In this document: in pieces, positions 6,022 through 24,352 of the stretch
How positions within the stretch are numbered: the stretch's first letter is position 1
How the letters are laid out: each line of letters begins with the position of its first letter
IMG/VR virus record: IMGVR_UViG_3300042560_001133
Span: 1 to 35,007 of that record
From: a virus
Strand: one strand, 5' to 3'
Length of the DNA stretch: 35,007 nucleotides
Position numbers and translations under genes: made by a program
The notes under the pieces: generated by a model
What the model was told of the DNA's origin: nothing
Database searches by the model: none
What the model saw: only the letters and a program-made list of their open reading frames with translations

Positions 6022-6034
6022 TTCGTTACCTAGG
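6022..6034 (+). promoter_or_regulatory. late start-associated element, copy 1 (diverged)
   Basis: TTCGTTACCTAGG, one base different from the other copies (C for T at the ninth base). It is 7 nt before the portal ATG at 6042 instead of the usual 2 nt, so the downstream GTTAGAG may serve as a weak ribosome site here. It heads the portal and minor head gene block. Confidence 0.75.
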
Positions 6035-6041
6035 GTTAGAG

Positions 6042-7319
6042 ATGTCACCACTCAAGCGGTTATTCAAGGGGTTTACCTGGTTCGGGGTCGGTGCATCCAG
6101 TAGCCCGGTCGGTGGCGGCCTAGGAATCACCGGCGTACCGCTTTCGCTAGGTTCAAACTCTAGGCAGTCGGAAGGATCGGCGGCGGTCATGGCTCCGGTG
6201 TACTGGGCTATGCGTGCCTTTGTGGAACCACCGCTAACGGTGTACATCGGGGAAGAGGCAGTACCGGCCTCGCCACTTGGCAAACTTATTGCCGAACCTA
6301 TGGCGGGACTGTTAAGCGAAGAGTACGGCAAGCCGCAGACGCGGCGCACGCAGGACCAACTCACCATTGCGAGCCTTATCCTCGACGGCAACGCCTACCT
6401 CAAGATTTGGCGGGATGAGCGGGGCAACGTGGTCGGTCTCCAATGGTTGCCGCACTGGGACGTTGACCCGCTGAGCGTGGCGGGAAACCCCAACGGGCTT
6501 CGTGCCTTTCGGTATGCGTTCGGCGGCACGATCCGCGAGTGTCCACCGGAGGACATGATTCACATAACGACGGGGCTACCGGACGCGAACGACCCGCTCA
6601 AGTCGGTATCCCCGGTCAAGGCGGTGATGCGCGAGGTGATGACAGACCAGCAGATTGCGGTCTTCACCTACGCCATCATGCGGCAACCAAACCCTGCGGC
6701 GACCATTACGCCCAAGGAGGGATCGTGGACGCAAAGCCAAGCCGAGGACGTGGCGAGCGTGCTGCGGCAAAGATCGGCGGGAGAATCGGCGGGTAGCGTC
6801 ATGGTGATGGGGGCTAATGCAACCATTTCGAAACTCGGGTTAACGCCCGAGGAAATGGCCCTAGACGTTATCCCGGCCCATATTGAGCGTCGCATCTCGG
6901 CAGTGCTGGGCATTTCCCCGTTGGTGTCGGGACTAGCGTCGGACCCTACGTACTCCAACTACACGACGGCGCGGGAAGCGGCTACCGAAGAGTTCTTGGT
7001 ACCGATGTGGCAGTTGGTGGCAGATTCCATGTCGGATGCTTTGGTGCCCGAGTTTGGGAACAGGAACGGCGGGTGGCGGCTGGCTTACGATCTTACGAAC
7101 GTTCGGAGCCAACAAGAGGACCGGGACGCTCTGCATAACCGGGTGCGGGAAGATTTCGACAAGAACCTTATTGACCTCTTCACGGCCAAGACCGAGACGG
7201 GGCGGGTGCCGGAGAACTCCGACAAGGGGGTCTACGCTTGGATGCTCAAAAGTGCGGGGGTGGCACCGCAGGCGAGTAAAGGCGCGGCGGCTCGGAAGCG
7301 TGCCGAGGAATCCCTGTAA
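6042..7319 (+). CDS. HK97-family portal protein
   Basis: 425 residues. Forms the dodecameric ring at the special vertex through which DNA enters and to which the tail is joined. Family-like features are the N-terminal Gly/Ser-rich stretch, MAPVYWAMRAFVEPPLTVY, LDGNAYLKIWRDERGNVVGLQWLPHWDVDP, IRECPPEDMIHI, and IPAHIERRISAVLGISPLVSG near residues 280-300, followed by an aromatic and Thr-rich helix. The length is usual for the family. It follows the large terminase and its stop codon touches the minor head ATG. Confidence 0.93.
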   Translation: MSPLKRLFKGFTWFGVGASSSPVGGGLGITGVPLSLGSNSRQSEGSAAVMAPVYWAMRAFVEPPLTVYIGEEAVPASPLGKLIAEPMAGLLSEEYGKPQTRRTQDQLTIASLILDGNAYLKIWRDERGNVVGLQWLPHWDVDPLSVAGNPNGLRAFRYAFGGTIRECPPEDMIHITTGLPDANDPLKSVSPVKAVMREVMTDQQIAVFTYAIMRQPNPAATITPKEGSWTQSQAEDVASVLRQRSAGESAGSVMVMGANATISKLGLTPEEMALDVIPAHIERRISAVLGISPLVSGLASDPTYSNYTTAREAATEEFLVPMWQLVADSMSDALVPEFGNRNGGWRLAYDLTNVRSQQEDRDALHNRVREDFDKNLIDLFTAKTETGRVPENSDKGVYAWMLKSAGVAPQASKGAAARKRAEESL

Positions 7320-7985
7320 ATGTGCCAGGTGCTAGCGTGCGCGGACCATGCGGTCAAACTCGCGGCGCAACCGCTCATTCTTTCCCCGCGGCCTTCGGAG
7401 TACGAGCTGTTAGTAGCTCGGCACGACAAGCAGTTCAGGGTACTTGCGGTGAAGCTGGCGGGCGGCATGAGCGTTGGCGAGTGGCGGGACGCGATGGAAG
7501 CCGAGATAGAGGAGATGCACTACCAGACTCACATCATCGGGCAGAAGATCAGCGGCAACACGTCTATGGACATGGCGTGGGCGCGGCGCGTGGCGGCGCA
7601 GATGCGGGACGAGGAAAGCCAGTACCTGAATGACTTCGCGGCAAAGATCGAAGATGGCGGGTACGAGTTGGTTGACGGTGGGCTGAACGATGATGCGGTG
7701 TACTCGCGGCAACGCCTGTACCTTGGCAAGTCAAGGGGCACGGGTAACCAGGCTTTTGTAGACGCTTCCCCTCCCGGCAGTGAATGGGACTGGATCCTCG
7801 GCGGAATCGAAGAGCATTGCGCGGACTGCCCGGTGCTCGCGGCGGGCAGTCCGTACATTGACGAGACGCTTTACACCACTCCGGGCGCAGGTGATACGCC
7901 ATGCCTGGGGAATTGCAAGTGTCACATCAAGCGTGCCGATGGTGCGGTTGGCATCCTGCCTATTGGCGTAGCTTTGGCGGCGTAG
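7320..7985 (+). CDS. minor head / head morphogenesis protein (Mu gpF-like)
   Basis: 221 residues beginning immediately after the portal stop with no gap. The N-terminal half is helical. The C-terminal half has the family signature of a Cys-containing loop, EEHCADCPVLAAGSPY, then CLGNCKCHI near the end, as in phage Mu gpF and SPP1 gp7-like proteins that sit inside the head near the portal. Four clustered Cys could bind a metal. Gene order (portal, minor head, protease, capsid) supports the call. Confidence 0.85.
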   Translation: MCQVLACADHAVKLAAQPLILSPRPSEYELLVARHDKQFRVLAVKLAGGMSVGEWRDAMEAEIEEMHYQTHIIGQKISGNTSMDMAWARRVAAQMRDEESQYLNDFAAKIEDGGYELVDGGLNDDAVYSRQRLYLGKSRGTGNQAFVDASPPGSEWDWILGGIEEHCADCPVLAAGSPYIDETLYTTPGAGDTPCLGNCKCHIKRADGAVGILPIGVALAA

Positions 7986-7992
7986 CCCTTCT

Positions 7993-8005
7993 TTCGTTAC
8001 TTAGG
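7993..8005 (+). promoter_or_regulatory. late start-associated element, copy 2
   Basis: Exact TTCGTTACTTAGG, then GT and the GTG start of the protease gene at 8008. The AGG is only 2 nt from the start, too close for a normal Shine-Dalgarno contact. It heads the protease and major capsid block. Confidence 0.85.
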
Positions 8006-8007
8006 GT

Positions 8008-8736
8008 GTGGCAGACACGCGGGAGATTAAATCCACCCTCTTCGAGATTAAGGCCCTAGACGCTGAAACCGGCGTCCTGTCGGGCTATGGCTCGGTTAAG
8101 AACTCGGTGGACTCGGTAGGCGACGTTATTGTTGACGGGGCCTACGGCGACACAGAAGCGATTCTGAAGGATGGGTTCCTCGCGCTCGGCCACGACTGGG
8201 ACGATAACCCCATCGGCTACTTTACGAAGATCGTAGAGGACGCCAACGGGCTGTACTTTGAAGCTCAATTCCACGATACGCCTGCGGCTCAAGAGACGCG
8301 CAAGGTTGTGCAAGAGCGACTAGCGGCGGGCAAGTCGGTGGGGCTGAGTATCGGCTACTTCGTTCTCAAGAGCCGGTACGAGGATCGCGAAGGGAAGTCC
8401 GTTCGCATCCTGGAATCAATCCTAGTCAAAGAGATTTCGGTGGTGACGGTCCCGGCTATGCCGATGGCCCTTGCGACCGATTGCAAAGCAGGTGAAGCGG
8501 GCGCAGGGTCCCGTTTCGAGGACCAGTTTAACCAGCTACTGGCGGCGGGTGATGACGTGTTCTCTCGGCTTGAGACCTTCCAAAAGGATCGCAAGCAGGG
8601 CCTCTCTGAAACCAATCGCGAACGTGCGAGATTGCTCGGCGAGATGTTCTCAAAAATGGCAGCGGAAGAGAAACCCGCGCCGGTTCTTGAGGCTGTCCCC
8701 GATGACCTCTTGGCGTTTGCTCGGACCTTGAGTTAA
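8008..8736 (+). CDS. HK97-type prohead protease
   Basis: Peptidase family S78 (U35), which cleaves capsid subunits and itself during head maturation. 242 residues from GTG 8008. The domain fills about residues 5-160: GYGSVKNSVDSVGDVIVDGAY, the catalytic His in ALGHDWDDNPIGY (H62), and the catalytic Ser in AAGKSVGLSIGY (S114), followed by LVKEISVVTVPA. The C-terminal 80 residues are helical and may be the scaffold-like or self-cleaved part. It lies 7 nt before the capsid gene. Confidence 0.95.
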   Translation: MADTREIKSTLFEIKALDAETGVLSGYGSVKNSVDSVGDVIVDGAYGDTEAILKDGFLALGHDWDDNPIGYFTKIVEDANGLYFEAQFHDTPAAQETRKVVQERLAAGKSVGLSIGYFVLKSRYEDREGKSVRILESILVKEISVVTVPAMPMALATDCKAGEAGAGSRFEDQFNQLLAAGDDVFSRLETFQKDRKQGLSETNRERARLLGEMFSKMAAEEKPAPVLEAVPDDLLAFARTLS

Positions 8737-8743
8737 CAAGCAA

Positions 8744-9919
8744 ATGTTCAATACCCTGTATGAAAAGCGCGACGAACTGACTGCCAAATGGCAGGCCAAG
8801 TTTAACAGTCTTGAGAAGGACGCCAATGGCGAAGTCAAAGCCACGTCAGACGACCTGAATTTCCTTGGCGGGATCCGCAACGAACTCGAAGCCATCGGCG
8901 AGCAAATCGCGACGGTGGAATACGGCGTTAAGATCGGCAAGGACGGCAAGTGGCAAAAGGTTGCCACGGATGCCCCGGTGCGCCAAGAGGCCAAAAGCCT
9001 CGGCGAGCAGTTCGTATCCAACCCCGAGTGGAAAGGCTCCAGCAGCTTGACCCAAGGTGGACGCCGATACGAGTACGACATGGACGCGAAAGCGGTCATG
9101 ACCACGACGGCCGGTTACGTGCCGGAAGTGTTCCGCGACGGTACCAACGTCTACGCCATTTCGCGACCTCCGCAACTGATGGACTTCCTTCAGTTCGAAA
9201 GCACGGACCAGAACTCGATTGCGTACATGGCGCAAACGACGCGAACGGCAAACGTGACGGCAGTTGCTGAAGGCGCAACGCTGACCGAAGCCGCGTACGC
9301 GTGGACGGAGCAGACCGCTCCAATCCGCGATATTGGTTCGTTCCTGCCGGTTACCCAAAACCAGCTGGACGACGCGGCGCAGGTACGTTCCATCATTGAC
9401 GGTGATTTGCTCCTCGCGACTCGCCAAGAGATGGACCGTCAACTCACGGTTGGTTCCGGCTCAGGCTCGAACCTGACCGGTATCTACAACACGTCGGGCA
9501 TCTTGACCCAGGCTAAGGGTGCGCTTACCACGCTGGACGCAATCGCAACTTGTTTGCGCCGATTGTCCGCGACGGAAGCGTACGTGAACCCGAACCTGAT
9601 CGTGATGCACGCAACGGACCTCTGGAACCTCTTGCTGGTCAAGGACTCCCAGAACCGCTACCTGCTCGCTGACCCAGGCGGAATGCCCAAGCCGATGGCA
9701 TGGGGCCGCCCGGTCATTCAATCGGACGCGCTTACCGCTGGTAACGCGCTTGTTCTGGATACCTCGTACTTCACACCGGTTCTTCGCCGGGGTGTCGTGG
9801 TTGAGACGGGCTGGCAAAACGATGACTTCGTGAAGCGACAAGTGACGCTCCGCGCCTACGTTCGCCTCGGCATCAAAGCCAAGCGAGCAACGGCAGCAGT
9901 CACCCTCACCGGTCTCTAA
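8744..9919 (+). CDS. major capsid protein, HK97 fold
   Basis: 391 residues. The N-terminal ~100 residues are helical and charged, like the HK97 delta domain that acts as scaffold and is removed by the protease. The mature part starts around SLGEQFVSNPEW. Family features include VPEVFRDG, TANVTAVAEGATLTEA, PVTQNQLDDA, EMDRQLTVGSGSGSNLTGI (E-loop/A-domain region), VMHATDLWNLLL and a C-terminal RAYVRLGIKAKRATAAV. No clear ribosome site; translation probably continues from the protease gene 7 nt upstream. A strong terminator follows, which may raise capsid mRNA yield. Confidence 0.96.
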   Translation: MFNTLYEKRDELTAKWQAKFNSLEKDANGEVKATSDDLNFLGGIRNELEAIGEQIATVEYGVKIGKDGKWQKVATDAPVRQEAKSLGEQFVSNPEWKGSSSLTQGGRRYEYDMDAKAVMTTTAGYVPEVFRDGTNVYAISRPPQLMDFLQFESTDQNSIAYMAQTTRTANVTAVAEGATLTEAAYAWTEQTAPIRDIGSFLPVTQNQLDDAAQVRSIIDGDLLLATRQEMDRQLTVGSGSGSNLTGIYNTSGILTQAKGALTTLDAIATCLRRLSATEAYVNPNLIVMHATDLWNLLLVKDSQNRYLLADPGGMPKPMAWGRPVIQSDALTAGNALVLDTSYFTPVLRRGVVVETGWQNDDFVKRQVTLRAYVRLGIKAKRATAAVTLTGL

Positions 9920-9935
9920 GATCGGCGGGACTCCG

Positions 9936-9975
9936 GGCCTCTACCTGCATGGATGCGGGTGGGGGCCTTTTTATT
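9936..9975 (+). terminator. rho-independent terminator after the capsid gene
   Basis: GGCCTCTACCTGCAT (9936-9950) pairs with ATGCGGGTGGGGGCC (9953-9967) over up to 15 bp, including three G-U pairs; the top A-U pairs must open for the loop. TTTTTATT follows. Only 17 nt separate its T tract from the next start codon, and most of that is the repeated late element. Confidence 0.9.
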
Positions 9976-9977
9976 GT

Positions 9978-9990
9978 TTCGTTACTTAGG
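9978..9990 (+). promoter_or_regulatory. late start-associated element, copy 3
   Basis: Exact TTCGTTACTTAGG, 2 nt before GTG 9993 and directly after the capsid terminator. If that terminator works, mRNA for the downstream seven-gene block has little other DNA in which to start than this element. That supports, but does not prove, a promoter role. Confidence 0.85.
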
Positions 9991-9992
9991 GT

Positions 9993-10409
9993 GTGCCAAG
10001 CGCTTTCAAAATTTCTACAGCCGCACGCAACGCGGCATGCAACGCTATTGTTGCCCTCGTTGACGGAGGGGCTGGACCGGGCACTATCCAAATTCGGACC
10101 GGGGGGGCACCTGCAAATCCGGCGGCGGCAGACTCTGGGACCCTGCTCGGAACCCTAACAATGTCAGATCCGGCGTTTGGAAGCTCATCGTCGGGAACGG
10201 CGACCGCTGCCGCTATCACCTCGGACACAAGTGCCGACGCATCGGGGGATACTGGCCACTTCCGCGTAAAAGACTCAAGCGGAAACGTCATCTTCCAGGG
10301 GACGGCGGGTAACTCCGGCGACACCCCTGACCTAGTCTTTGACAACAAGTCTGTCGTTGCTGGTGGCACTGTTTCCATCAGCTCGTTAACAGTGAGTGTG
10401 CCCGAATGA
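9993..10409 (+). CDS. virion structural protein, decoration-like
   Basis: 138 residues from GTG 9993. A small N-terminal helix (STAARNAACNAIVALVD) is followed by a beta-rich part: GTIQIRTGG, LLGTLTMSDPAFG, DTGHFRVKDSSGNVIFQGTAG and a final GGTVSISSLTVSVPE. This looks like a family of phage proteins found just after capsid genes, probably on the outside of the head, but I cannot name it. Its stop overlaps the next ATG as ATGA. Confidence 0.8.
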   Translation: MPSAFKISTAARNAACNAIVALVDGGAGPGTIQIRTGGAPANPAAADSGTLLGTLTMSDPAFGSSSSGTATAAAITSDTSADASGDTGHFRVKDSSGNVIFQGTAGNSGDTPDLVFDNKSVVAGGTVSISSLTVSVPE

Positions 10410-10564
10410 ACTTTCTATTCAATGTGAAAATCAGCGGAGCGGCAACGTCTGGATACGATGCCGAAACGATCAACCGGCGACTGGCAACCGGCGTGGATGG
10501 CGAAGAGCGTCAGTTCCTTTTAGGCTTGCTGGCAAAGCTGGAGGGCGTCCATGCCGACCGATAA
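10406..10564 (+). CDS. small hypothetical protein (52 aa)
   Basis: MNFLFNVKISGAATSGYDAE onward, ending LEGVHADR. ATG 10406 overlaps the previous stop (ATGA) and the 3' end overlaps the next gene by 14 nt, so it fits a translationally coupled chain and fills the gap exactly. The C-terminal half is helical with EERQFLLGLLAKLEGV. No family recognised. Confidence 0.6.
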   Translation: MNFLFNVKISGAATSGYDAETINRRLATGVDGEERQFLLGLLAKLEGVHADR

Positions 10565-10973
10565 CGTTGGATATAGCCCTGGCACCGGGGTAAAAATTGC
10601 GTCTAGAGAAGTTGCTTACTCCGGCGAGACGGCGCACGCGCAGTCGGTCAACCTGGTGACCGTAGAAGGCTCCGACGATTCCAAGATTGCAACGGACGTC
10701 AACGCTGCGAACCCGATGCCGATTCAAGAAGTCAGCGGGGGGTCTTCCCTCCTCAGGCGCATTCTTGACATGCTCATGAGCCCAATGGGGTTTGATAGGA
10801 CACTCTCTCGGCAACGCTCGACGGCGGTTATTGAATCGGGCACGGTAACGACCGTGACAACCGTGACAACCGTGACGGGACTTACCAATATTGACGGGCG
10901 AAACGCTTCGATGCTTATCAACGCGACAAACTTGACCGCATGGGCTAACTGCCATCGCTCAAGAATCACCTAA
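10551..10973 (+). CDS. probable virion protein with TVT repeat
   Basis: 140 residues. GGAGGG at 10540-10545 lies 5 nt before ATG 10551, one of the best ribosome sites in the late region. The protein has an N-terminal beta-like part (VNLVTVEGSDDSKIATDV), a helix (SLLRRILDMLMSPMGFDR), then GTVTTVTTVTTVTGLTNI encoded by 9-bp DNA repeats, and a last segment INATNLTAWANCHR. It may be a head fibre or decoration protein, judged only by neighbours. Confidence 0.7.
   Translation: MPTDNVGYSPGTGVKIASREVAYSGETAHAQSVNLVTVEGSDDSKIATDVNAANPMPIQEVSGGSSLLRRILDMLMSPMGFDRTLSRQRSTAVIESGTVTTVTTVTTVTGLTNIDGRNASMLINATNLTAWANCHRSRIT
10843..10878 (+). repeat. 9-bp tandem repeat inside the TVT stretch
   Basis: About four imperfect copies of a 9-bp unit (GTGACAACC and variants) that encode Thr-Val-Thr. 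Slippage here would change the length of the beta-like or linker segment without shifting the frame. Confidence 0.7.
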
Positions 10974-10982
10974 GAAACTAAC

Positions 10983-12599
10983 ATGGCAAACACCTTTAAG
11001 AAAGCAATTGACCGATTGATGTGGGTGCAGACCGTCCCATCGCCCGCTGCTCATGCAGCGGGTACTTCGATGGCATCGGACTTTCGGACCAACTCAACCC
11101 AAAGCCCGTTTGTTTATCAGTTGGTTTCTAACTCGGTTTTGAATCGCTACAACATCATCACCAAGGCTTGGCAGCTCGCGGTTGCGAACCCGCTTACGGC
11201 AGGTACGTTTGGCGCGGGGTCGACGTCGGCGCAGGCGCCATCGTTCGGCGCGGTGGGCACCATTGCGGCGGGTGCAACGACCACAAGCGTGACTCTTTCA
11301 ACTGCGCTGCCGACGGCCGTGGGCTTAAACATGCTGGCCAACCGAGGCGGCTCAGGTGAGCTTGGCTACCGCTTGCGAATTATTGACACAACGGCTGGCA
11401 GGACTGAGGAACGGTGGATTGTTGGGAACACGGCGAGTGCCACGCCGGTGATTACGGTCGACGCTGCATTCTCGTTTACGCCTGCGTCGGGCGCGCGTTA
11501 CGAGATTCTGTGCGGTCGTCTTTTCATGCTGGGATCGGGCTTGGTAGCGGCGGGTGTGTTCCGCTCTTTTGAACCTGCGAGCAACACGCTTGCAAACCGA
11601 GGAACGACAAACCTTCCGGCCACTTTGACAACCGACTCGGCGATGATTGTTCTTGACGAACAGTACGGCCCCTTCGACATGAAGCCTGGCGAAGGTTTTA
11701 TCCTCGGAACTCACGAAACAGATTCGGTAGGCGGCGGTCGCCTCGCCATTATCGCGACGGCTTCGGCGGCTGGCTCAATTACGGGCCGCGCATCAGGTGG
11801 CGACGCGGTGGTAGCGGCTAACGAGTTTCGCAACTTCCAAATTCGCATCGTTGAAGACACGGTGACGCCTGGAGCGGTTGGCCAGCGCCGGATGATCGCG
11901 AGCCATACGGCTGGCCCTAGCCCGGTCTATACGCTCGGAGCTAACTGGACCACGACTCCCAGTAGCAGCGCAAAATTCGTTATCGAACTGCCGAACCTTA
12001 TCGTCTTGCGAACGACGGCCAACACAACGACCTACACCTACAACTACACGGACGCCACGATTAACAACGGTACGAACTCTATCGCGGCGGATGCCTGGAG
12101 CACGACCTATTTTGGTACAGCTCCTGCGGCCAACGCAGCCGGCTGTCTGTGGGCTCCAAGTTTTGGGATTCAACCGGACGCGGCGCGAAACGCTCGGCAC
12201 AGTTTCTGCTACTTCTTCCGAGGCGGCTCGGTGACCCTTGACGTGCTTGATATTGCGGGCGGCACCGCTGGACTCTGGACGGGGGGCATCACCTACGGCG
12301 GAAACGTGAACACATTTGGGGCTGGCACTACGGGGGCTTACTGCCCTTGTGGTGAGGAGGGGAGGTACACCTACGTCAATGTTTTCGTTGCCTCTCAACT
12401 CTCGCAGATGTACCGATTTGACGCGAAGAACCGTGCATTCACTCCATATGCCGCGACGGACTTTATCCAGACGGGTACTGCAACTCAAGGCGGGCGCATG
12501 GCGGCAGTCGCGGCGATTGACGGCACTGATAAATATGGAGTAGTGCTTTTGCAGTCTCACCTTTCGACACTTTGCCAGGAGCTAATTCCACTCGTATGA
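10983..12599 (+). CDS. large virion structural protein (538 aa)
   Basis: Almost entirely Ser/Thr/Gly/Ala-rich and beta-like, typical of exposed phage structural proteins. The start MANTFKKAIDRLMWVQ is amphipathic. The C-terminal third is richer in aromatics and conserved-looking motifs: FGIQPDAARNARHSFCYFFRGG, YCPCGEEGRYTYVNVFVAS, MYRFDAKNRAFTPYA, GGRMAAVAAIDGTDKYGVVLL. Repeated YGG/TGG turns suggest a repetitive beta fold, perhaps propeller-like. The place among post-capsid genes suggests a head-attached protein. Family not recognised. The stop overlaps the next ATG. Confidence 0.82.
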   Translation: MANTFKKAIDRLMWVQTVPSPAAHAAGTSMASDFRTNSTQSPFVYQLVSNSVLNRYNIITKAWQLAVANPLTAGTFGAGSTSAQAPSFGAVGTIAAGATTTSVTLSTALPTAVGLNMLANRGGSGELGYRLRIIDTTAGRTEERWIVGNTASATPVITVDAAFSFTPASGARYEILCGRLFMLGSGLVAAGVFRSFEPASNTLANRGTTNLPATLTTDSAMIVLDEQYGPFDMKPGEGFILGTHETDSVGGGRLAIIATASAAGSITGRASGGDAVVAANEFRNFQIRIVEDTVTPGAVGQRRMIASHTAGPSPVYTLGANWTTTPSSSAKFVIELPNLIVLRTTANTTTYTYNYTDATINNGTNSIAADAWSTTYFGTAPAANAAGCLWAPSFGIQPDAARNARHSFCYFFRGGSVTLDVLDIAGGTAGLWTGGITYGGNVNTFGAGTTGAYCPCGEEGRYTYVNVFVASQLSQMYRFDAKNRAFTPYAATDFIQTGTATQGGRMAAVAAIDGTDKYGVVLLQSHLSTLCQELIPLV

Positions 12600-12757
12600 C
12601 CATCGAAAATCTCATTGCGCTTTTGCGAAACAAGCTGGCGGCCATTGCTGGTCAACGGGCACATGCATTTTCAACCGGAGACGTTGAGCGCGTTGTTATG
12701 CTTGACGCGGAAGCAGAACAAACCCAAACGACTCTATACCAGCTAGAGACTATCTAA
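12596..12757 (+). CDS. small coiled-coil protein (53 aa)
   Basis: ATG 12596 overlaps the previous stop as ATGA. The sequence, MTIENLIALLRNKLAAIAGQ then DVERVVMLDAEAEQTQTTLYQLETI, is almost all heptad-like helix. Similar short helical ORFs after large beta proteins sometimes act as assembly or trimerisation helpers; here that is a guess. It is 1 nt from the next gene. Confidence 0.65.
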   Translation: MTIENLIALLRNKLAAIAGQRAHAFSTGDVERVVMLDAEAEQTQTTLYQLETI

Positions 12758-12758
12758 G

Positions 12759-13106
12759 ATGTTCTTAACGCTTCTCCGAGCTCAAGCCGTTAGCGGTACG
12801 GTTGTCGCGACCATTGCGGCGGCCACAATTTCAGGCTCGGCAACGTTTAGCCAGTTTTACACCGGTTCGGCATCTCTTTTGCCGAGCAAGGCCACAATTT
12901 CAGCCTCGGCAACGTTTAGCCAGTTTTACACCGGTTCGGCATCTCTTTTGCCGAGCAAGGCCACAATAAGCGCGTCTGGCCTCTTTTTTGTCCGCGCAGT
13001 TCCGCCTTTTGAAGTTGTGCTGATGTCTCCGAGCATTCAGGTGGTGGTAAGCACCACGGAGACAACGGCGGTCTTTTTATCTTTAAGTACTACCTATGAG
13101 CTCTAA
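12759..13106 (+). CDS. repeat-containing structural protein (115 aa)
   Basis: After MFLTLLRAQAVSGTVVATIA the protein consists of two almost identical 23-residue units, ATISGSATFSQFYTG... and ATISASATFSQFYTG..., and a third partial unit starting ATISASGLFF. The C-terminus is hydrophobic and beta-like. The DNA repeat is a recent duplication. Probably a minor virion or fibre component. The 3' end overlaps the next gene by 11 nt. Confidence 0.65.
   Translation: MFLTLLRAQAVSGTVVATIAAATISGSATFSQFYTGSASLLPSKATISASATFSQFYTGSASLLPSKATISASGLFFVRAVPPFEVVLMSPSIQVVVSTTETTAVFLSLSTTYEL
12821..12958 (+). repeat. 69-bp tandem duplication, two copies plus a partial third
   Basis: Bases 12821-12889 and 12890-12958 appear identical except one G/C difference (12835 against 12904). 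A third copy starts at 12959 and diverges after about ten bases. The unit is 23 codons, so copy number can change without breaking the frame. The near-identity, silent positions included, points to a very recent event or gene conversion. Confidence 0.92.
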
Positions 13107-13404
13107 CATCACGTGGACGATTGGCGACACGCTTCCTAAAGTAGAAGCGGTATTGAAGGATCGGAATGGCCCGGTTAACCTTACGGGGGCTTTGGTTCGC
13201 TTCGTCTCGAATATGGGGGTGAACGCGGCGGCCACGGTTGTCACTCCGGCATCTGGCGCGGTCGAGTTTACTCCGACTGGCATCACGCTTAAATCCGGCT
13301 TGTGGACGGCCAGGTTCGTCGTCACCTTTGGCAATGGCAGCGTGCTGTCGTTCCCGAACTCTGATCCTTATCTTTACCTTGAAGTGGTGAACCAGGACGC
13401 CTGA
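13096..13404 (+). CDS. BppU-like / Ig-like structural domain protein
   Basis: 102 residues. MSSNITWTIGDTLPKVEAVLKDRNGPVNLTGALVRF, then ASGAVEFTPTGITLKSGLWTARFVVTFGNG and FPNSDPYLYLEVV, match the beta-sandwich seen at the N-terminus of BppU-type baseplate proteins and in stand-alone head-region proteins. Here it stands alone among post-capsid genes. ATG 13096 overlaps the preceding gene. Confidence 0.72.
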   Translation: MSSNITWTIGDTLPKVEAVLKDRNGPVNLTGALVRFVSNMGVNAAATVVTPASGAVEFTPTGITLKSGLWTARFVVTFGNGSVLSFPNSDPYLYLEVVNQDA

Positions 13405-13421
13405 CGGCGGCAGAATCCCAG

Positions 13422-13434
13422 TTCGTTACTTAGG
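13422..13434 (+). promoter_or_regulatory. late start-associated element, copy 4
   Basis: Exact TTCGTTACTTAGG, 2 nt before ATG 13437. It heads the connector and tail-completion block of five genes. The 17-nt spacer before it holds no clear hairpin. Confidence 0.85.
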
Positions 13435-13436
13435 GT

Positions 13437-13637
13437 ATGCCGGTCACTACTTTGGCAATTGCACTTACCGACTCGGGCGAATACGTTTCACGAGACCACC
13501 CGGACGCCACCTCGGTTCCTTTCCAGATTGGCGACATTGTGCCGGAGGACGTTCTAGCGGCATTTGAGGCGAGTCTTGCTAAAGCTAAGAAACCTGCGGC
13601 AACCAAAGAAGCGGCACCCAAGCAAGAAGCGAAGTAA
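13437..13637 (+). CDS. small Lys/Ala-tailed protein (66 aa)
   Basis: Residues 1-45 look folded (TLAIALTDSGEYVSRDH, VPFQIGDIVPEDVLAAFEAS). The rest is a Lys/Ala/Glu tail (KAKKPAATKEAAPKQEAK). Short proteins of this kind often precede the head-tail connector in siphoviruses, but no function can be given. The next ATG follows directly. Confidence 0.7.
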   Translation: MPVTTLAIALTDSGEYVSRDHPDATSVPFQIGDIVPEDVLAAFEASLAKAKKPAATKEAAPKQEAK

Positions 13638-15502: not shown

Positions 15503-15507
15503 CCCAC

Positions 15508-15520
15508 TTCGTTACTTAGG
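15508..15520 (+). promoter_or_regulatory. late start-associated element, copy 5
   Basis: Exact TTCGTTACTTAGG, then TT and GTG 15523, the start of the tail tube gene. It sits 5 nt after the upstream stop codon. Confidence 0.85.
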
Positions 15521-15522
15521 TT

Positions 15523-16338
15523 GTGAGCGCACGCATCATCTACGGCGACATGACGGTCTTTTCGGCGGGGGGTACATCCCTGCTCGATTCGTGCGACGGG
15601 GTGACGCTCAAGGTTCTTAACGCATCCTCCGAGGGCAAGCCGGTGAGCAGGATCGGCAAAAGTCCTCAACTGGTCAAGAAGTCTTTCGAGATTTCCACGG
15701 CGGCTATGTCCAACGTGACTGGCGTCAACCGGGTTACCAACCTTAACCTCTCTGCGCTTACGGTGGGTGCTACGGACTACCTCGCAAACGTGGACGGCAT
15801 CTCAATTAACGGCTCATTTGACCTCAAGGAAGGATCGCCACGGGGTGACCTTTGGAGCAAGCCTGAGGTAGTCGCCAAAGACTACTCCGGAACGCTGACC
15901 CTCCTCATCCCTACGGCCGGACTGGTGGCACTTCAAACGCTTGCGGTGTCGAATACGGTGGCCGATGCTTACTCAACTCTCAGCTTCACCATCAACGGGA
16001 TTGCAACCACGCTCCCGATTATGTTTGGATCGTACACGCACATTGCGACGATGGACGACCTTCAAAAGATCGAGATTGAGTACAGCGGGCGCGACCTCCT
16101 GACCGGCGCGTATCCTACAGCCCCAACGGGCACGTCCTCGCTTTTGACCAAGGCATTCAACGATCCGCGCAACGAACTAACCTTCGCCTTCACCCCGGCG
16201 GCAGTTAATGCAACGCAAGGCGCATGGTCGGGGAACATGACGTGGAGTTCGTTTAGCTACTCGGTGAACTCTGACGATGTGGTGAAAACGGAATATTCGT
16301 GGACGGGCTTTGGTGCCCCAACGGTGGTGTACGTCTAA
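15523..16338 (+). CDS. major tail tube protein
   Basis: 271 residues from GTG 15523. A beta-rich protein with the tail-tube style opening IIYGDMTVFSAGGTSLLDSCDGVTL, a middle domain (GISINGSFDLKEGSPRGDLW), and a C-terminal part ending WSGNMTWSSFSYSVNSDDVVKTEYSW. The order tail completion, tube, chaperone with frameshift, tape measure is diagnostic for siphoviruses. The stop TAA overlaps the next ATG. Confidence 0.85.
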   Translation: MSARIIYGDMTVFSAGGTSLLDSCDGVTLKVLNASSEGKPVSRIGKSPQLVKKSFEISTAAMSNVTGVNRVTNLNLSALTVGATDYLANVDGISINGSFDLKEGSPRGDLWSKPEVVAKDYSGTLTLLIPTAGLVALQTLAVSNTVADAYSTLSFTINGIATTLPIMFGSYTHIATMDDLQKIEIEYSGRDLLTGAYPTAPTGTSSLLTKAFNDPRNELTFAFTPAAVNATQGAWSGNMTWSSFSYSVNSDDVVKTEYSWTGFGAPTVVYV

Positions 16339-16502: not shown

Positions 16503-16857
16503 CATCGGACGTGTTGCCGGTTTCGCCCGGTAAAAGGTCCGCCATTACGTGGCCTACTACCATCTCCTCGGCTAGAACCGTGCCTTTTGCGTCGTAGAGG
16601 GTGACCTTGACGGACGGGGCTACTTTGGTAGCCGATGTGCTGCGGTAGTTGACGCTTGCAGATAGGCTGCCGCTTGGGGTTCTGCCAAGGTCCACCCATC
16701 TTACAAGCAAGTCGCCTACGGGCTGGTTCGTGGCGATTCGGCCCTCGTCTAGCTTGTAGATTTTGCGGTCGGGGTATTTGGCTTGGATTGCCTCAATGCT
16801 TGGCCCCTTGCAACCGGCCAACGCTACCACTGCAAGCATAGCGGCGCATAGCTTCAC
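16447..16857 (-). CDS. lipoprotein moron inserted in the tail operon
   Basis: 136 residues from GTG 16857, the only minus-strand gene between 350 and 28560 that I accept. It begins (M)KLCAAMLAVVALAGCKG: a Lys, a short hydrophobic core, and a lipobox ALAGC with the lipidated Cys at 16. The mature part (LLVRWVDLGRTPSGSLSAS, KVTLYDAKGTVLAEEMV, DLLPGETGNTSDVIPVPV) looks like an FxLYD-type beta domain found in exported lipoproteins. Inference: lysogenic conversion or superinfection exclusion at the cell surface. The start codon directly touches the late element, and a -10-like TATAAA lies upstream at 16895-16900. Alternative: accidental antisense frame, less likely given the signal peptide and the lack of a plus-strand gene at 16503-16873. 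Confidence 0.68.
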   Translation of the reverse strand: MKLCAAMLAVVALAGCKGPSIEAIQAKYPDRKIYKLDEGRIATNQPVGDLLVRWVDLGRTPSGSLSASVNYRSTSATKVAPSVKVTLYDAKGTVLAEEMVVGHVMADLLPGETGNTSDVIPVPVNLQPVAFSLAPR

Positions 16858-16870
16858 TTCGTTACTTAGG
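16858..16870 (+). promoter_or_regulatory. late start-associated element, copy 6
   Basis: Exact TTCGTTACTTAGG, 3 nt before ATG 16874 of the tail chaperone. Its other end touches the GTG of the divergent lipoprotein gene at 16857, so the element nearly fills the gap between two divergent starts. Confidence 0.85.
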
Positions 16871-16873
16871 TTG

Positions 16874-17350
16874 ATGGATCTCACCTGGAACGATTTTATA
16901 GCACAACTGCCAGATCCGGAACCATATTTTTGCGTGACTTTGAGTTCGGGCCACGAATTTAAGTTCAGCAACGCAGGTTCGATTGATGATCTTATCCAGG
17001 CAGACGAGCGGGCCGGGAAGATTCTGGCGGCAATTCGTGCGGGTTCCTACCCTGAGCAAGTGCGCGGGAAGTTCCCCGCAAGTGATGCGGCGCGGATGGC
17101 TGTGGCGCGGCTTGCTAGTCGGCTGATTGAACCTGCGTGGTCCGAGATTGACCTTGCGGGGATGAGCACCGATCCACGTTCTGCGGGGCTTTTTGCTGAA
17201 TTGGTCCTTGAGTTTGGGAACAAAGCCAACAGTTCGGCGGCGGTGGCGGTGGACATTGACACTAAAAAAAAGTCCTCGAAAGCGACTGGGTTAGACGAAC
17301 CAGCCTCGGAATCTCTCGAAACGTCTACGGACGGCACCCCAACGAGTTGA
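16874..17350 (+). CDS. tail assembly chaperone, short form (gpG-like)
   Basis: 158 residues. MDLTWNDFIAQLPDPEPYF starts right after the late element. The body is alpha-rich (DDLIQADERAGKILAAIRAG, DAARMAVARLASRLIEPAW, AGLFAELVLEFGNK), and the zero-frame end after TKKK is low-complexity Ser/Glu. It lies between tail tube and tape measure, where lambda has G and G-T. The short form helps tape measure folding. Confidence 0.85.
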   Translation: MDLTWNDFIAQLPDPEPYFCVTLSSGHEFKFSNAGSIDDLIQADERAGKILAAIRAGSYPEQVRGKFPASDAARMAVARLASRLIEPAWSEIDLAGMSTDPRSAGLFAELVLEFGNKANSSAAVAVDIDTKKKSSKATGLDEPASESLETSTDGTPTS

Positions 17351-17433
17351 CGCAGGAGCAACGCGGATACCTGTCTGAGTTCGTTGCCCTTGCGCTGATT
17401 GAATCGGAGGAGATAGCAAATGCCAGTAGTTGA
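16874..17433 (+). CDS. tail assembly chaperone, -1 frameshift long form (gpGT-like)
   Basis: Shifting by -1 at A AAA AAG (17266-17272) replaces the short C-terminus with a frame open to TGA 17431-17433, giving about 186 residues. The extra 53 residues look like real protein, not noise: a basic stretch, NVYGRHPNELTQEQRGYL, then SEFVALALIESEEIANASS, similar in character to the T extensions of siphovirus GT proteins. The tape measure ATG at 17420 lies inside this extension, as is common. Confidence 0.8.
17266..17272 (+). other. programmed -1 ribosomal frameshift site
   Basis: The heptamer A AAA AAG, in the correct phase within a run of eight A (17264-17271), is the same as the well-known E. coli dnaX slippery site. 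It lies 78 nt before the zero-frame stop codon. I did not identify a clear downstream stimulatory structure. Confidence 0.82.
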
Positions 17434-18931: not shown

Positions 18932-21100
18932 GTGGCACTCTCGGTTATCTTTGACCACGCGCAACCGAGACTACGGTATGACCGTCTCTCTGCGTTTGCG
19001 GACGCGCCACTGTTTAACCCGCGCTCGCGGGACTCTAAGGCGGAACTCAGCGGTTGCACGATTGAGCCGGTGGGCGGGCGGGTTATCCTAGAGCCGTACT
19101 GCCTTACAAAGACCTGGTACACCAGCAACTCGGGCGACTACGCAAAGCTCGCGCTATCGGCGTTTGCCAGTACATCGGGATGGGAAGAGCGGGCGGACCA
19201 ACACGCACGCGGCCCGTATCTTGCGCGGCCCGATGCTACGACGGGTAGCCTGGTCACCACCACAACCTACGCCAAAAACCAGGGCTTCTATATCGCGTTT
19301 TGGTCCTATGGCGCGGGGGATGTGTTCATCTCGCACCAGTTCGGTTGGAACTCCACGGCGAGCACGGCGGCGGGTATCTCCATCGAGTACGCTAGTGATT
19401 CCACCGTCAACGTTTTGCAGGACGGGGTAGCGATTGGGCAAGGCAAGATCAGCGGTTCGTCCACCACCAACAACACGGGTGGCAGTCTGGTAGAGCTGGT
19501 GGTGATCCCGATGGCACGGCGCGAGATTGTCATATTTTCGCCCTCAAGCGGGGACGGGTTCTCGGTTATCGTGCCGGGTATCGACGAGTCAACCAGCTCG
19601 CCTACGATCCTTCCGGCCTCTAAGTTCTGGCTCAAGATTGTGGCGGGCGCGTCGCAAATCCAGGTGGCACCCATCAAGTTCCCGACGAGTGGCACGGCAA
19701 CCAGCGACCGGCTGAGCCTCTTGGAGCCACCGGCGAGCGGTGAGACGTTGGAATCCTACGACAATTCCCCTTGGCCTACGGGGTCGGTAGATTACCGGGT
19801 GTGGGGTTATCCCGCATACGTCGGCACTCAGGGTCTTACCGCTACCTTGCGCAAGTGGGACGGCACGGCATTTAGCGCAGACGGCACAGAAAAGAATTGC
19901 CGGGTACGGCTCACGCTCACAACCGACAACCAGACCGTAACCCCCGTTGCCTATGGCGGCGCAGTGGCCTACCGGCGCACGCTGACCAATACTAGCGATT
20001 CTGAGGCAGACGTGACGCTGAACGTTCTGGATTGCACGCTCTCGGTTGCGGAGTCTCCGGGCGATGCGGCTATTGATTTGGTGGTGCGTGACCCGGCGGG
20101 GATGGTCCCTCCATTTGTGAGCACGACTACCAACCGGCCCATCAAGGTCAAGATCGGATCGGTGACGCTCTTTGATGGGCTGTGCGGGGATTTGCCGCGT
20201 GAGTTTACGGCCAATCCAGCGGCGGATACGGTTCAGTTTGAGGTCCGCAACCGCTTAAAGCTACTAGACGAATACGTGTTTACGGAACCTTTCCCGCTGG
20301 ACGGGTTCAACTTCTCGTCCGCTCTTTCGTTCCTCGCGGCGCGGGCGTTTAACACGGGTGAGATTGACATTTCTACTACCAGCTTTGCCGTGCCGTTTGA
20401 GGGTTCTCGAAGTGGAGGCGACTGGGGGTCTATGGTGGAAGTGGGGGATACCGCGCTGTCATGGATTGAGCGGCTGATTGAAACCTACGCTTTTGATTGG
20501 TACTGGGGAGTCAAGCCTACATCTACGGGGGTGAAGTTCTTCGCTAAGTCTCTCGCAGACCTTGGCACTACTCCTGCGGTGACGGTCTACGAGACGGACG
20601 CGGCGGCGATAACGGGCGGCGTTGCGGCGGCGGACCTTTTGAAGTTTACGGTGCGCGAGGTGCGCGAGACGCTGCTAGAACCTATCGCGAACGACGTGCG
20701 GGTAACGGGGGTAGACCCTCGGACTGGGCGACCGTTCCAAAGCCACCGGGAGGACGCGGCGAGCAAGGACCCCACAACGGCCCCGGGGTCTAGACCCGAC
20801 AACTGGAAGGGGACGATCCTGCGCTATGGGCTAGCCGATCCCGCCATTACCACGCAGACGCTTTGCAACCAGGTGTGTACTACTATTGCCAGCCGGGTGT
20901 TCCCTGCGAGGTACGCGATTGAGTGGAAGTCTGATCTACTGATGGGGTCGGGTTCGGTTCCGCTTTGGCGCGGCGACGTGGTGCGGATTCAGGGGCGCGG
21001 GGACTACCGCATTCAGACCATCGGTTGTCAGTTTGACGCGGAGTATAGCGGCTCTCGGCCCGTGTTCCGCGAGGCACTTTACACAGGAGAAAAGCTATGA
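18932..21100 (+). CDS. large tail tip / baseplate hub-like protein
   Basis: 722 residues from GTG 18932, directly after the tape measure stop. The N-terminal ~270 residues are beta-rich and may hold a lectin-like sandwich (GFYIAFWSYGAGDVFISHQFGW, LVELVVIPMARREIVIFSP). The C-terminal half looks hub-like: IKVKIGSVTLFDGLCGDLPREF, VRNRLKLLDEYVF, ALSWIERLIETYAFDWYWGVK, VPLWRGDVVRIQGRGDYRI, which resembles gp27/gpD-like proteins that cap the tube. Gene order puts it at the distal tail. Exact family not recognised. Confidence 0.75.
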   Translation: MALSVIFDHAQPRLRYDRLSAFADAPLFNPRSRDSKAELSGCTIEPVGGRVILEPYCLTKTWYTSNSGDYAKLALSAFASTSGWEERADQHARGPYLARPDATTGSLVTTTTYAKNQGFYIAFWSYGAGDVFISHQFGWNSTASTAAGISIEYASDSTVNVLQDGVAIGQGKISGSSTTNNTGGSLVELVVIPMARREIVIFSPSSGDGFSVIVPGIDESTSSPTILPASKFWLKIVAGASQIQVAPIKFPTSGTATSDRLSLLEPPASGETLESYDNSPWPTGSVDYRVWGYPAYVGTQGLTATLRKWDGTAFSADGTEKNCRVRLTLTTDNQTVTPVAYGGAVAYRRTLTNTSDSEADVTLNVLDCTLSVAESPGDAAIDLVVRDPAGMVPPFVSTTTNRPIKVKIGSVTLFDGLCGDLPREFTANPAADTVQFEVRNRLKLLDEYVFTEPFPLDGFNFSSALSFLAARAFNTGEIDISTTSFAVPFEGSRSGGDWGSMVEVGDTALSWIERLIETYAFDWYWGVKPTSTGVKFFAKSLADLGTTPAVTVYETDAAAITGGVAAADLLKFTVREVRETLLEPIANDVRVTGVDPRTGRPFQSHREDAASKDPTTAPGSRPDNWKGTILRYGLADPAITTQTLCNQVCTTIASRVFPARYAIEWKSDLLMGSGSVPLWRGDVVRIQGRGDYRIQTIGCQFDAEYSGSRPVFREALYTGEKL

Positions 21101-21231
21101 CCTATCGAACCGGAGTAACGCTTGAGAGTCGGAAGGCGATGCGCAAGTGGATGGAAAACAAGACCATCGTGCGGCGCGGCGCGGAAGAAGCGGTTAAAAA
21201 GCCCGCGAGCAAGATCACAAAACTAACGTAA
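21097..21231 (+). CDS. small basic protein (44 aa)
   Basis: MTYRTGVTLESRKAMRKWME onward, ending KKPASKITKLT. AGGAGA at 21085-21090 lies 6 nt before ATG 21097; the start overlaps the upstream stop as ATGA and its own stop overlaps the next ATG as TAATG. This exact nesting between two long genes makes it very likely a true gene. It is Lys/Arg-rich; function unknown. Confidence 0.7.
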   Translation: MTYRTGVTLESRKAMRKWMENKTIVRRGAEEAVKKPASKITKLT

Positions 21232-24200
21232 TGCCGACTTACCTTGACGCAAGCGTCAACCGTGCGACCGTAAATGAGACTTGGGAAGGCACGTTTACGG
21301 GTACGTATTGGGGCCGGAAGAACTCGTTTGCGGTTCAGCAGGGTTTCAGTATCCCCGCGTGGCGTTGGCAGATGCCCTTCGTTGGTCCGTGGGGCAACAT
21401 TACAACCACGGAACCACCGGGCGCATACGTGACCGTACGCTACGAGTCCGGCAGCTCGCCTTCGGCTTTGTTTCCTTATGACTTCATTCCGTCTCCTAAC
21501 ACTTCCAGCTTGTACATCATCATGGAGTGCGAAAACGGATACGGGGCGCGAGATGTGGCCTACGTGGAGCGGACGTTCTCGGGTTCTGGCGTTGTCCAGT
21601 CGCTTGCCATCTCGGGTGAATGGTCATTCTCGGCGCAGTGTGAGGAAGTGCTTCACCCGTATTTCATGGACGAAGCGGTCAGAGGTGCGGACGGTTCTCC
21701 GACCTACGGCGGCGCGGCTTCGGATGACATTGTTCCGCGTGCTCAGGGCCAACATTTCTACCTGCGATTCCGCGAGGGTGGTACGGCTGTGGCGTCTGGT
21801 TCGCTCACGGTAGATGGAACAACCGTCACGGCTACGGCGTCGTCGGTGGTGTCGGCTTCGGGTCCGGGGTCTGCGCTGTACGGTTACTACCCCACTTGCC
21901 GCATGGATCAGTTCTCGGTGAACAAGTCGGGGTCTATGTCGGCGACCTTTACGAACTTCGGGGATGAAGCGGTGGACGCGGATACGGATACCCATACCGA
22001 TGCGTATTCCCAGGAGGTCACCCGCTCGCTTTCGGTCGGCGGGTCTGACGTCACCCTTTCGCAAGGGTGGACGATCTACGAAGGTGTCACCATCGGTTCA
22101 CCCGGCAACATGGGGGATGGGCGGGGTGAATCTGCCTCGGTGGTGTTCCTCACAATGGAGCCGCAGGACACGCTCGGGCTGGCTTGCAAGTTCTTCGCGA
22201 TGGACGCGAACTACCCGTCGCCGGGGCTGGACCTTTCCTATCTCCGGCGCAAATCTCTGTCCGCGCAGACGCTCACCTGCAACCCCTTCAACTCGGCTCA
22301 GTGGACACGTCGGTCCTATGGGTCGGATGGGGCTTGGGGTCTAAACTACTATCCACCGGCAGAATCTGACTACGGGCTACCGGGCGATGGGCTGGGCGAC
22401 GGCGGCGCATTGACGCTCGGGGACTTTGACGCGGTGAGTGCCGACGAGAAAGAACCTTTGCGGTCCTGGGTGAACTCGGCTTCGCTAGCAGCTCGAGGTG
22501 AGGAACCGCAGGACTGGCGCACGCTCTTCCGGGGCTATCGGTACAACCTGGGGACCCTGACCAAAGACGCAACCATCGGGGTAGGTGGTGGTACGGGGGC
22601 GTCTCGGTCATGGTCCCCGAACCCCGGCAACTGGGAAGGCTACCGCTTCCTGCGTGTTCGGCTCAAGGTCACGTCGGGCGGGTCGGTTGAGTTCACGGCT
22701 AGCGCAACGGCAACGCCTTCTAAGACGTTCAAGACGACGGCCACGATGACGGCGGACACGTTCCAATACGTTTGGTTCGATCTCTGCAACCCCGACGGGG
22801 GCACCTGGACGACCGACAACCTTGACACCCGGTACCCCGTCCTGGGGGATGGACTCCCGGAAGAAGATCCCGACAGTCGCGGCGTTGGGCGCATAACTGC
22901 CCTTACCATCTCGGGCGGAACGGGGCTGACGGTAGATACCATAGACCTCGCCCACTGGCAGGACATAGCGGGCGGCCTTACCACCGATCCGCCTACCCTT
23001 ACCTGCGCCCCGGTCTGGAACTGGTGGACGAGGACGCAAGAGACCGGCGACGTGGTGGAGGCTTACGTAGGGCTTCAAGGGGACGCGAACGGCCGGCGTT
23101 CGTGCGATGTTCCTATCGCGAGTCGGCAGCTCTTCACGGATGCGTTCGGGGCGGCGTTTTGGGTCTACTCCCAGGTCACGATCAACGCGGCTCGGATTGA
23201 CCTACTCAATACTCCGGGGTGGAATTGGGCGGACGGATTTAGCCCAGTGACGGGTGACACTTGGCACCGGACGGGGCTTTCGGGATCGGCGGCTTATGGC
23301 TCGCAAGCCTGCTGGATCGGCGGCGGCGGGGTCACGATCAGCGGGAACGCAACGGGGGACTTTCTCAACTGGATGGGCCGCGATCTGACTGGCGGCCTCT
23401 CGATGGTGGCGCAGTCGCTGATGGATGAAGTGCGGCTGTGGCCTCGGTGCGGGGAGGTCTTCCAAAAAGGTTCAACGGGCGGCCGCACTTGGCTGCGGAC
23501 GGCTAAGGTTCTGCGAGGCGGCGCGATGGGGGCAGTGTTTGGAGGCGCGGACCCCGCTAGCGACGTGACGTTGTACGAGTCTCCAGGTACTGACCCGGTG
23601 GCAACCGATGCGGTAGACGAATGTAGACACTACGCGGTAGGCAGTCCCTACGCACGCATGAACGAAAGTCTAACCCCGGACCCTCGCACGTATATGGTGC
23701 GGTGGAACTCCGCCCAGCATTCCACCCACGCATCTAAGGCGCGGCGGTGGTGGCGCGTGCATTTCCAGGCGACTGAGGAAGAGACGGGCAAGAACATTTC
23801 TAGCGACATGCGGCAGGACGGGACGCGGTACCGGGCCTACATCTCTAGCCTGGGCAAAGTGGTGACCGGGAAGGCGACGCGGAACAGCTTGTACTCGGAC
23901 ACCACAACGGCAATAGACGGAGATTGGGCAAACATCCAAGCCGAGAAGTACGCGAGCGCGGTAACGCTCTTCCTGCTGGTGCAACCTCCAGCGGGCGGGG
24001 TAGTCGAATACAAGAGCACAGACGGGAGCACATGGACCATGAGTAGGACTATCGTATCAAGCGGGAAGTACCCGGCGGCAGTTTGTGAGGCGGATGGTGT
24101 CCGGTATTCGTACTGGCTCAATGGCACGCAGGTAGATGGCGAGATAACCGACCGATCTGGGGCGATCCTTGCGAGCCCCACGGCGTGCGTGACTGGGGTG

Positions 24201-24326
24201 GATGATTCCGGTATTGCGGTCTTAGCCTACGCAAAGTCGGAGGGGCGGGTAGTCATAGAGCTGCAGGTGAGGAAGACGGGGGCCATTGTGGTGTACACGA
24301 GCAGCGACGGACGGACCTTTGTTTGA
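21231..24326 (+). CDS. very large tail protein, probable fibre or receptor-binding
   Basis: 1031 residues, the largest gene here. Beta-rich with many Trp, Gly, Ser and Thr, typical of exposed tail proteins. Notable parts are an N-terminal segment that may attach to the tail (TYWGRKNSFAVQQGFSIPAW), several jelly-roll-like stretches (YRFLRVRLKVTSGGSVEFTA, RYPVLGDGLPEEDPDSRGVG), and a C-terminal series of short beta units with SSDG or STDG turns (STDGSTWTMSR, YTSSDGRTF) like Asp-box repeats. No catalytic motif recognised. Coupled to the upstream gene by TAATG. Confidence 0.75.
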   Translation: MPTYLDASVNRATVNETWEGTFTGTYWGRKNSFAVQQGFSIPAWRWQMPFVGPWGNITTTEPPGAYVTVRYESGSSPSALFPYDFIPSPNTSSLYIIMECENGYGARDVAYVERTFSGSGVVQSLAISGEWSFSAQCEEVLHPYFMDEAVRGADGSPTYGGAASDDIVPRAQGQHFYLRFREGGTAVASGSLTVDGTTVTATASSVVSASGPGSALYGYYPTCRMDQFSVNKSGSMSATFTNFGDEAVDADTDTHTDAYSQEVTRSLSVGGSDVTLSQGWTIYEGVTIGSPGNMGDGRGESASVVFLTMEPQDTLGLACKFFAMDANYPSPGLDLSYLRRKSLSAQTLTCNPFNSAQWTRRSYGSDGAWGLNYYPPAESDYGLPGDGLGDGGALTLGDFDAVSADEKEPLRSWVNSASLAARGEEPQDWRTLFRGYRYNLGTLTKDATIGVGGGTGASRSWSPNPGNWEGYRFLRVRLKVTSGGSVEFTASATATPSKTFKTTATMTADTFQYVWFDLCNPDGGTWTTDNLDTRYPVLGDGLPEEDPDSRGVGRITALTISGGTGLTVDTIDLAHWQDIAGGLTTDPPTLTCAPVWNWWTRTQETGDVVEAYVGLQGDANGRRSCDVPIASRQLFTDAFGAAFWVYSQVTINAARIDLLNTPGWNWADGFSPVTGDTWHRTGLSGSAAYGSQACWIGGGGVTISGNATGDFLNWMGRDLTGGLSMVAQSLMDEVRLWPRCGEVFQKGSTGGRTWLRTAKVLRGGAMGAVFGGADPASDVTLYESPGTDPVATDAVDECRHYAVGSPYARMNESLTPDPRTYMVRWNSAQHSTHASKARRWWRVHFQATEEETGKNISSDMRQDGTRYRAYISSLGKVVTGKATRNSLYSDTTTAIDGDWANIQAEKYASAVTLFLLVQPPAGGVVEYKSTDGSTWTMSRTIVSSGKYPAAVCEADGVRYSYWLNGTQVDGEITDRSGAILASPTACVTGVDDSGIAVLAYAKSEGRVVIELQVRKTGAIVVYTSSDGRTFV

Positions 24327-24339
24327 CACCGTTCTGCGG

Positions 24340-24352
24340 TTCGTTACTTAGG
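24340..24352 (+). promoter_or_regulatory. late start-associated element, copy 7
   Basis: Exact TTCGTTACTTAGG, 2 nt before GTG 24355. It heads the deacetylase-tail, amidase and holin-like block. Confidence 0.85.

Follow-up and report, generated by a model that had tools for sequence, protein, structure and literature searches.

Several phage-encoded sigma factors are known to drive late transcription. In T4, the small sigma factor gp55 reads a −10-type element only, the A/T-only TATAAATA, and late transcription also requires gp33 and the sliding clamp. The late genes of PBSX are organized as one main late operon, and its xpf gene, as we take it, lies directly before the terminase genes. In PBSX, a defective prophage of Bacillus subtilis, the late structural genes are regulated by the positive control factor Xpf, a group IV sigma factor (PMC10141391, PMC8347963). 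The gp36 promoters of phiEco32 carry the single element tAATGTAtA and no −35 element, with transcription starting 6–8 bp downstream, and phage 7-11 encodes gp47, a sigma factor diverged from gp36 (15% identity) that uses different promoters at similar genome positions (PMC8948821). A further described sequence class is that of the start-associated sequences of Cluster K phages, which, in the available part of their description, are 13-bp asymmetric repeats in one orientation a few nucleotides before starts, with the consensus GGGATAGGAGCCC that includes the Shine-Dalgarno core AGGAG; they are limited to the non-structural half of the genome, their function is unproven and that part of the description makes no mention of a linked sigma gene (PMC3203893).

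Here we analysed a 35,007-base virus record from IMG/VR (the window, meaning this whole stretch of DNA), in which a 13-bp element, TTCGTTACTTAGG, is repeated before late genes and absent elsewhere in the phage. On sequence comparison and structure modelling, we consider it likely that the elements are late promoters of the phage and that the ECF-like sigma factor recognizing them is encoded by its own gene 4056–4520.

A 13-bp element repeated at late gene starts

The gene content of the window is that of a temperate siphophage, with primase, TerL, portal, protease, HK97-type capsid, tape measure, endolysin, integrase and HTH-S24 repressor genes assigned by PHROGs and profile searches. The elements fall within its structural and late region, downstream of the terminase genes:

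4517–6020, plus strand: terS (4517–4825, plus strand, assigned by its position from gene order and sequence) and terL (4818–6020, assigned by PHROGs), upstream of the first element
6042–27313, plus strand: late region with head, tail and lysis genes (PHROGs), split by seven elements
6022–6034, plus strand: element with one change, TTCGTTACCTAGG, 5' of the portal gene 6042–7319; kept in the relative L013 at 2227
7993–8005, plus strand: exact element, 5' of the head protease gene 8008–8736; L013 4197
9978–9990, plus strand: exact element, 5' of the virion structural gene 9993–10409, with a terminator hairpin directly upstream
13422–13434, plus strand: exact element, 5' of the small gene 13437–13637; L013 6218, with one change
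15508–15520, plus strand: exact element, 5' of the tail-region gene 15523–16338; L013 8306
16858–16870, plus strand: exact element, 5' of gene 16874–17350, just upstream of the tape measure gene; L013 9656
24340–24352, plus strand: exact element, 5' of gene 24355–26613, which is followed by the endolysin gene

The gap from element to start codon is 2 nt at five exact copies (7993, 9978, 13422, 15508 and 24340), 3 nt at 16858 (where the start is ATG) and 7 nt at the single-change copy at 6022, and the base preceding the start codon is nearly constant (element, N, T, start). TTCGTTACTTAGG is the most repeated 13-mer of the window; by our own arithmetic about 0.001 occurrences are expected for one given 13-mer on both strands, and six exact copies in 35 kb are far beyond chance. 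The next best matches carry two to three mismatches and lie away from the starts of called genes. A sequence-only reading of this DNA had counted six exact copies and a seventh altered at a single position, every one on the plus strand and before a start, with five exact copies 2 nt and one 3 nt from the start and no copy elsewhere, and the window scan and distance count bear this out in full. That reading also knew of no described element with this sequence, and our literature search likewise found no paper that contains it. The element is asymmetric and not palindromic, and the window scan found no copy near the repressor gene or in the early region, a distribution unlike that expected of a stoperator or operator.

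Relatives carry the same element or a second type

Searches of genome contigs with the major capsid protein found no relatives, and those with TerL returned distant MAG loci only. L013 matches the window DNA in two blocks (92% and 85% identical) and retains five of the elements, in which one base out of 65 is changed. At its copy at 8306, the counterpart of window 15508, about 10 extra nucleotides lie between the upstream stop codon and the element while the gap to the start is unchanged; what is held constant is the spacing between element and start, rather than that between element and upstream gene. L013 lacks the window stretch 9978–13421, which spans exactly between two element copies. 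This stretch is an extra gene block (a phrog_3758-like gene, a gene for a 538-aa protein and others) that is also absent, judged by gene order, from L031, and it has the appearance of a module that was inserted together with an element of its own. The motif search at coding sequence starts that the sequence-only reading had proposed, run in IMG/VR with the element plus start pattern, succeeded in so far as L013, and L013 alone, showed several copies; the other hits were mostly unrelated single-copy contigs. When gene junctions were scanned crudely in about 40 distant relatives by TerL, no comparable element was detected; the same scans also missed the known copies of L013, which makes this a weak negative.

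No TTCGTTACTTAGG with up to two mismatches was found in three other relatives, L024, L030 (part of the 29.5-kb record G003) and L031. L024 carries TTGCGTTGATCC (type B, as opposed to type A in the window) or a one-base variant of it at three sites, namely before the portal gene, before the protease gene and right after the capsid terminator, and L031 has the same three type B sites. L030 keeps a type B element before the protease gene, and its portal-gene copy is degraded to TTCGCGTTTATCT. The B motif, taken from the head genes of L024, predicted sites at tail genes in another record: G003 carries further type B copies 5 nt before the gene corresponding to window 16874, that is, at the place of window copy 16858, and 7 nt before the orthologue of window 24355–26613 (32% protein identity, E 8e-48), the former gene being matched by gene order beside the tape measure gene, with no significant protein match. 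At the place in L031 that matches window 15508, no type B element was found. Common to both types is CGTT, which lies 13–18 nt before the start in type A (mostly 13–14 nt, 18 nt at the portal gene) and 13–16 nt before it in type B.

Two further observations concern G003. An exact type B element lies inside a coding gene (L081 7146–7157), 25 nt before an internal ATG, and may be a chance occurrence, an internal promoter or a remnant. A gene for a 1031-aa protein is 84% identical between the window (21231–24326) and G003 (4447–7539 of L081) while its neighbours are 32–52% identical, so it was exchanged recently; the element downstream of it is type A in the window and type B in G003.

Sequence context of the elements

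Upstream of the element the information content is below 1 bit per column, and in a −35 word search the best candidate was no better than in shuffled sequences, in agreement with the earlier statement that the upstream flank is not conserved and holds no −35 partner. Sigma-70-like sites were not commoner in the region than in shuffles, and none was located at any element. The mean Shine-Dalgarno pairing energy was −1.1 kcal/mol at element genes versus −4.5 kcal/mol at the other window genes; the AGG of the element lies, as already remarked from the sequence, too near the start for normal Shine-Dalgarno pairing, and no pairing of the element with 16S rRNA at usable spacing was found. One element is preceded by a strong terminator:

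9935–9968, plus strand: intrinsic terminator with a 14-bp stem and a T-run (−29.7 kcal/mol, z −4.2), between the major capsid gene and the element at 9978

The terminator ends about 9 nt upstream of the element, and L024 has a similar stem at the matching site, so that both element types are preceded by a terminator after the capsid gene. A terminator abutting an element, together with the near-absence of Shine-Dalgarno pairing, fits transcription starting at the element, and the absence of a conserved −35 partner from genes that mostly have no Shine-Dalgarno sequence fits a leaderless or near-leaderless mRNA. A T7-like single-subunit RNA polymerase was not found among the 30 window proteins scanned with PHROGs, a set that leaves out small ORFs.

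The same data bear on the possibility that the element is a translation-start signal, acting in the mRNA through ribosome contact or a phage RNA-binding regulator, as has been proposed for the Cluster K sequences and was the second suggestion of the sequence-only reading. Its position is fixed before starts (2 nt in five of the seven copies), and genes without a Shine-Dalgarno sequence would require another guide. Nevertheless, the gap to the start ranges from 2 to 7 nt and differs even for one gene, the portal-gene element lying 7 nt from the start in the window versus 6 nt in L013; the type B phages carry a wholly different sequence, CGTT aside; complementarity to 16S rRNA at usable spacing is lacking; and the terminator directly before one element leaves hardly any leader. 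We therefore regard a translational role as unlikely, and less likely than a role of the element as a promoter.

A sigma-like gene directly upstream of the terminase genes

A candidate for the protein that would read the element is encoded immediately before the terminase genes:

4056–4520, plus strand: gene for an ECF-like protein of 154 aa immediately 5' of terS/terL, the proposed late sigma factor (weak Sigma70_r2 match and AF2 model)

Over the whole window record, the Sigma70_r2 profile (PF04542) gave a single match, at 4215–4313, with an E-value of 0.0073; relatives gave 0.002 (L013), 1.6e-5 (G003) and 8.3e-7 (L050), with all E-values computed per single record and all matches below the curated cut-off. 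The profile had no match in L024 and L031 or in ten other TerL-related phage records, and a Pfam search with the window protein by itself returned nothing. For region 4, no profile match was obtained in gene 4056–4520, and the weak matches elsewhere in the window and in G003 lie at unrelated positions. The AF2 model of the product reached a pLDDT of 65, and its best five PDB matches in Foldseek were all sigma factors (E. coli sigma E, sigma E region 2, SigK, SigW and SigB), with E-values above 0.1. The ECF sigma factor RpoE (SAFYTWLYRIAVNTAKNYL) aligns with the window protein (ASFYSWLSRCLSGLRSDYR) over region 2 only, to which the stretch FYSWL..R...G...DY.R of the phage product maps. The AF2 model of the L030 sigma-like protein (pLDDT 49) was too low for use, PDB sequence searches gave nothing, and searches of IMG/VR and phage records with the sigma-like proteins returned the same four records and no others. 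L050, whose TerL is 49% identical to that of the window, has a clearer sigma-like gene at the same place, just upstream of the terminase genes. On these sub-threshold profile matches and the moderate-confidence model, the product of 4056–4520 is very probably a degenerate ECF-like sigma factor.

The distant phage record L071 has a FliA-like sigma gene (7044–7841) upstream of the terminase region, and sigma genes near terminases may be commoner in the wider phage group.

Late activators are often encoded just upstream of terS, which is where gene 4056–4520 sits. The gene might specify a non-sigma factor that binds the element, either a late activator of the RinA/ArpU type or a repressor or roadblock factor like those acting at Cluster A stoperators, and the asymmetric, 13-bp, stoperator-like form of the element and its switching along with this gene (see below) would suit such a factor. 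The sigma region 2 profile match and the exclusively sigma top fold matches argue against it; an activator would find no conserved promoter hexamers beside the element to help, and the phage repressor encoded at 33790–34527 is of the dimeric HTH-S24 type, which usually binds palindromes, and the element is no palindrome. A non-sigma factor is accordingly improbable, marginally more so than a translation signal, and a sigma factor remains our preferred assignment for this gene.

The sigma-like gene and the element switch together

L024 is about 91% identical to the window through the early genes and nearly all of terL, while the late genes differ. At the protein level, all genes up to terL are 86–100% identical except the sigma-like gene, which has no match, and the late genes are 33–46% identical; DNA identity ends at window position 4049 and returns at 4518. 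The sigma-like protein of L024 is unrelated to the window's and forms one family with those of L030 and L031 (49–79% identical). The order in L024 is thus a type B sigma-like gene, type A terS/terL and type B late elements. Simple linkage as the cause of this pattern is excluded by the type A terS/terL between the type B sigma-like gene and the type B elements; a matched set of regulator and promoters can explain the arrangement. L024 may have been assembled as a chimera, although its junctions coincide with gene borders. Among the relatives, divergence of the sigma-like gene goes along with divergence of the element, and this joint switch, a single independent one between two phage groups among the few relatives available for comparison, is strong but unreplicated evidence.

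Boundaries of this kind could also mean that the elements are recombination boundaries only, short words common to gene cassettes that aid modular exchange. What L013 lacks relative to the window is precisely the segment between copies 9978 and 13422, and the late-gene similarity between the window and L024 ends 36 bp ahead of the first element. Promoter repeats are, however, expected to recombine as a side effect; a boundary role leaves the constant place beside the start codon unexplained, and every element changes with the sigma-like gene while the early genes and terS/terL stay. We consider this explanation highly improbable and retain the promoter interpretation.

Elsewhere in the early region, an array of short repeats, ACGGACGGTTT / AAACCGTCCGT in both orientations, lies just 3' of the primase gene (window 3383–3728; L024 8486–8831) and probably marks the origin of replication. 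In L031 (2648–2951) another repeat, GGCGAGTGGTTTT / ACCACTCGCC, is found at similar spacing, and the DNA match of its primase gene to the window ends after window position 2434; its primase and repeats are possibly a second case in which a protein has changed along with its sites.

Proposed late transcription programme

In the proposed mechanism, the 13-bp element would be the single core recognition element of the late promoters, read by the host RNA polymerase together with the small ECF-like sigma factor. The sigma-like gene closes the early operon, so its protein would be made early and would then activate seven separate late transcription units: portal; protease and capsid; 9993; 13437 and connector genes; 15523; 16874, tape measure and tail; and 24355 and lysis. 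Transcription would begin at the start codon or a few nucleotides before it, giving leaderless or almost leaderless mRNAs. Applied to TTCGTTAC, the 6–8 bp between element and start site at gp36 promoters places the start at the start codon, and by this analogy leaderless or near-leaderless late mRNAs are somewhat favoured. Of the earlier suggestion of a late promoter giving leaderless mRNA, the promoter part has thus gained support from the linked and switching sigma-like gene, the terminator and the lack of −35 and Shine-Dalgarno sequences, and the leaderless part follows from spacing. A working sigma factor, its binding to the element, the start sites and the timing are what we infer. A broader proposal, as likely as not, is that these phages represent a temperate group in which most virion genes are transcribed by means of a small ECF-like sigma factor, from single-element promoters at start codons, giving leaderless mRNAs, and in which the sigma factor and the promoters of its regulon are exchanged as a matched set while the other early genes and the terminase stay unchanged.

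Comparison with known systems

Xpf of PBSX and the window protein, the latter by prediction, are both small ECF-like (group IV) sigma factors for the late genes of a prophage or temperate phage; PBSX has one main late operon, whereas the late genes here fall into seven short units, each with an element beside its start codon, and the PBSX promoter sequence differs from the window element. With T4 gp55 the proposal shares a single −10-type element and a small phage sigma factor, the T4 element being A/T-only. The gp36/gp47 pair resembles the type A and type B phages in combining diverged sigma factors with different promoters at similar positions; however, phiEco32 and 7-11 are virulent podophages with long genomes, whereas the window phage is temperate, its element abuts the start codon and its switch lies between recombining relatives with near-identical early genes. 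The parallel with Cluster K drawn by the sequence-only reading holds for placement and fails, against the available part of that description (PMC3203893), for the region, the Shine-Dalgarno core and the linked sigma gene: the window element differs from GGGATAGGAGCCC, has no AGGAG and occurs in structural genes rather than in the non-structural half.

Such a system would give phage start-associated sequences a reason, as promoters for leaderless late mRNAs and not ribosome sites, and, if the mRNAs are leaderless, synthesis of the virion proteins in this phage would largely do without Shine-Dalgarno initiation. As a natural specificity swap, in which phages that are otherwise near-identical have one of two sigma-like proteins and one of two promoter words, it would allow sigma residues to be matched to promoter bases, and the elements and sigma genes would serve as compact, mutually insulated expression parts. 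A late regulon under a phage sigma factor is known; what distinguishes the present case is the placement at start codons, the division of a temperate phage's late genes into seven short units, and the natural specificity swap.
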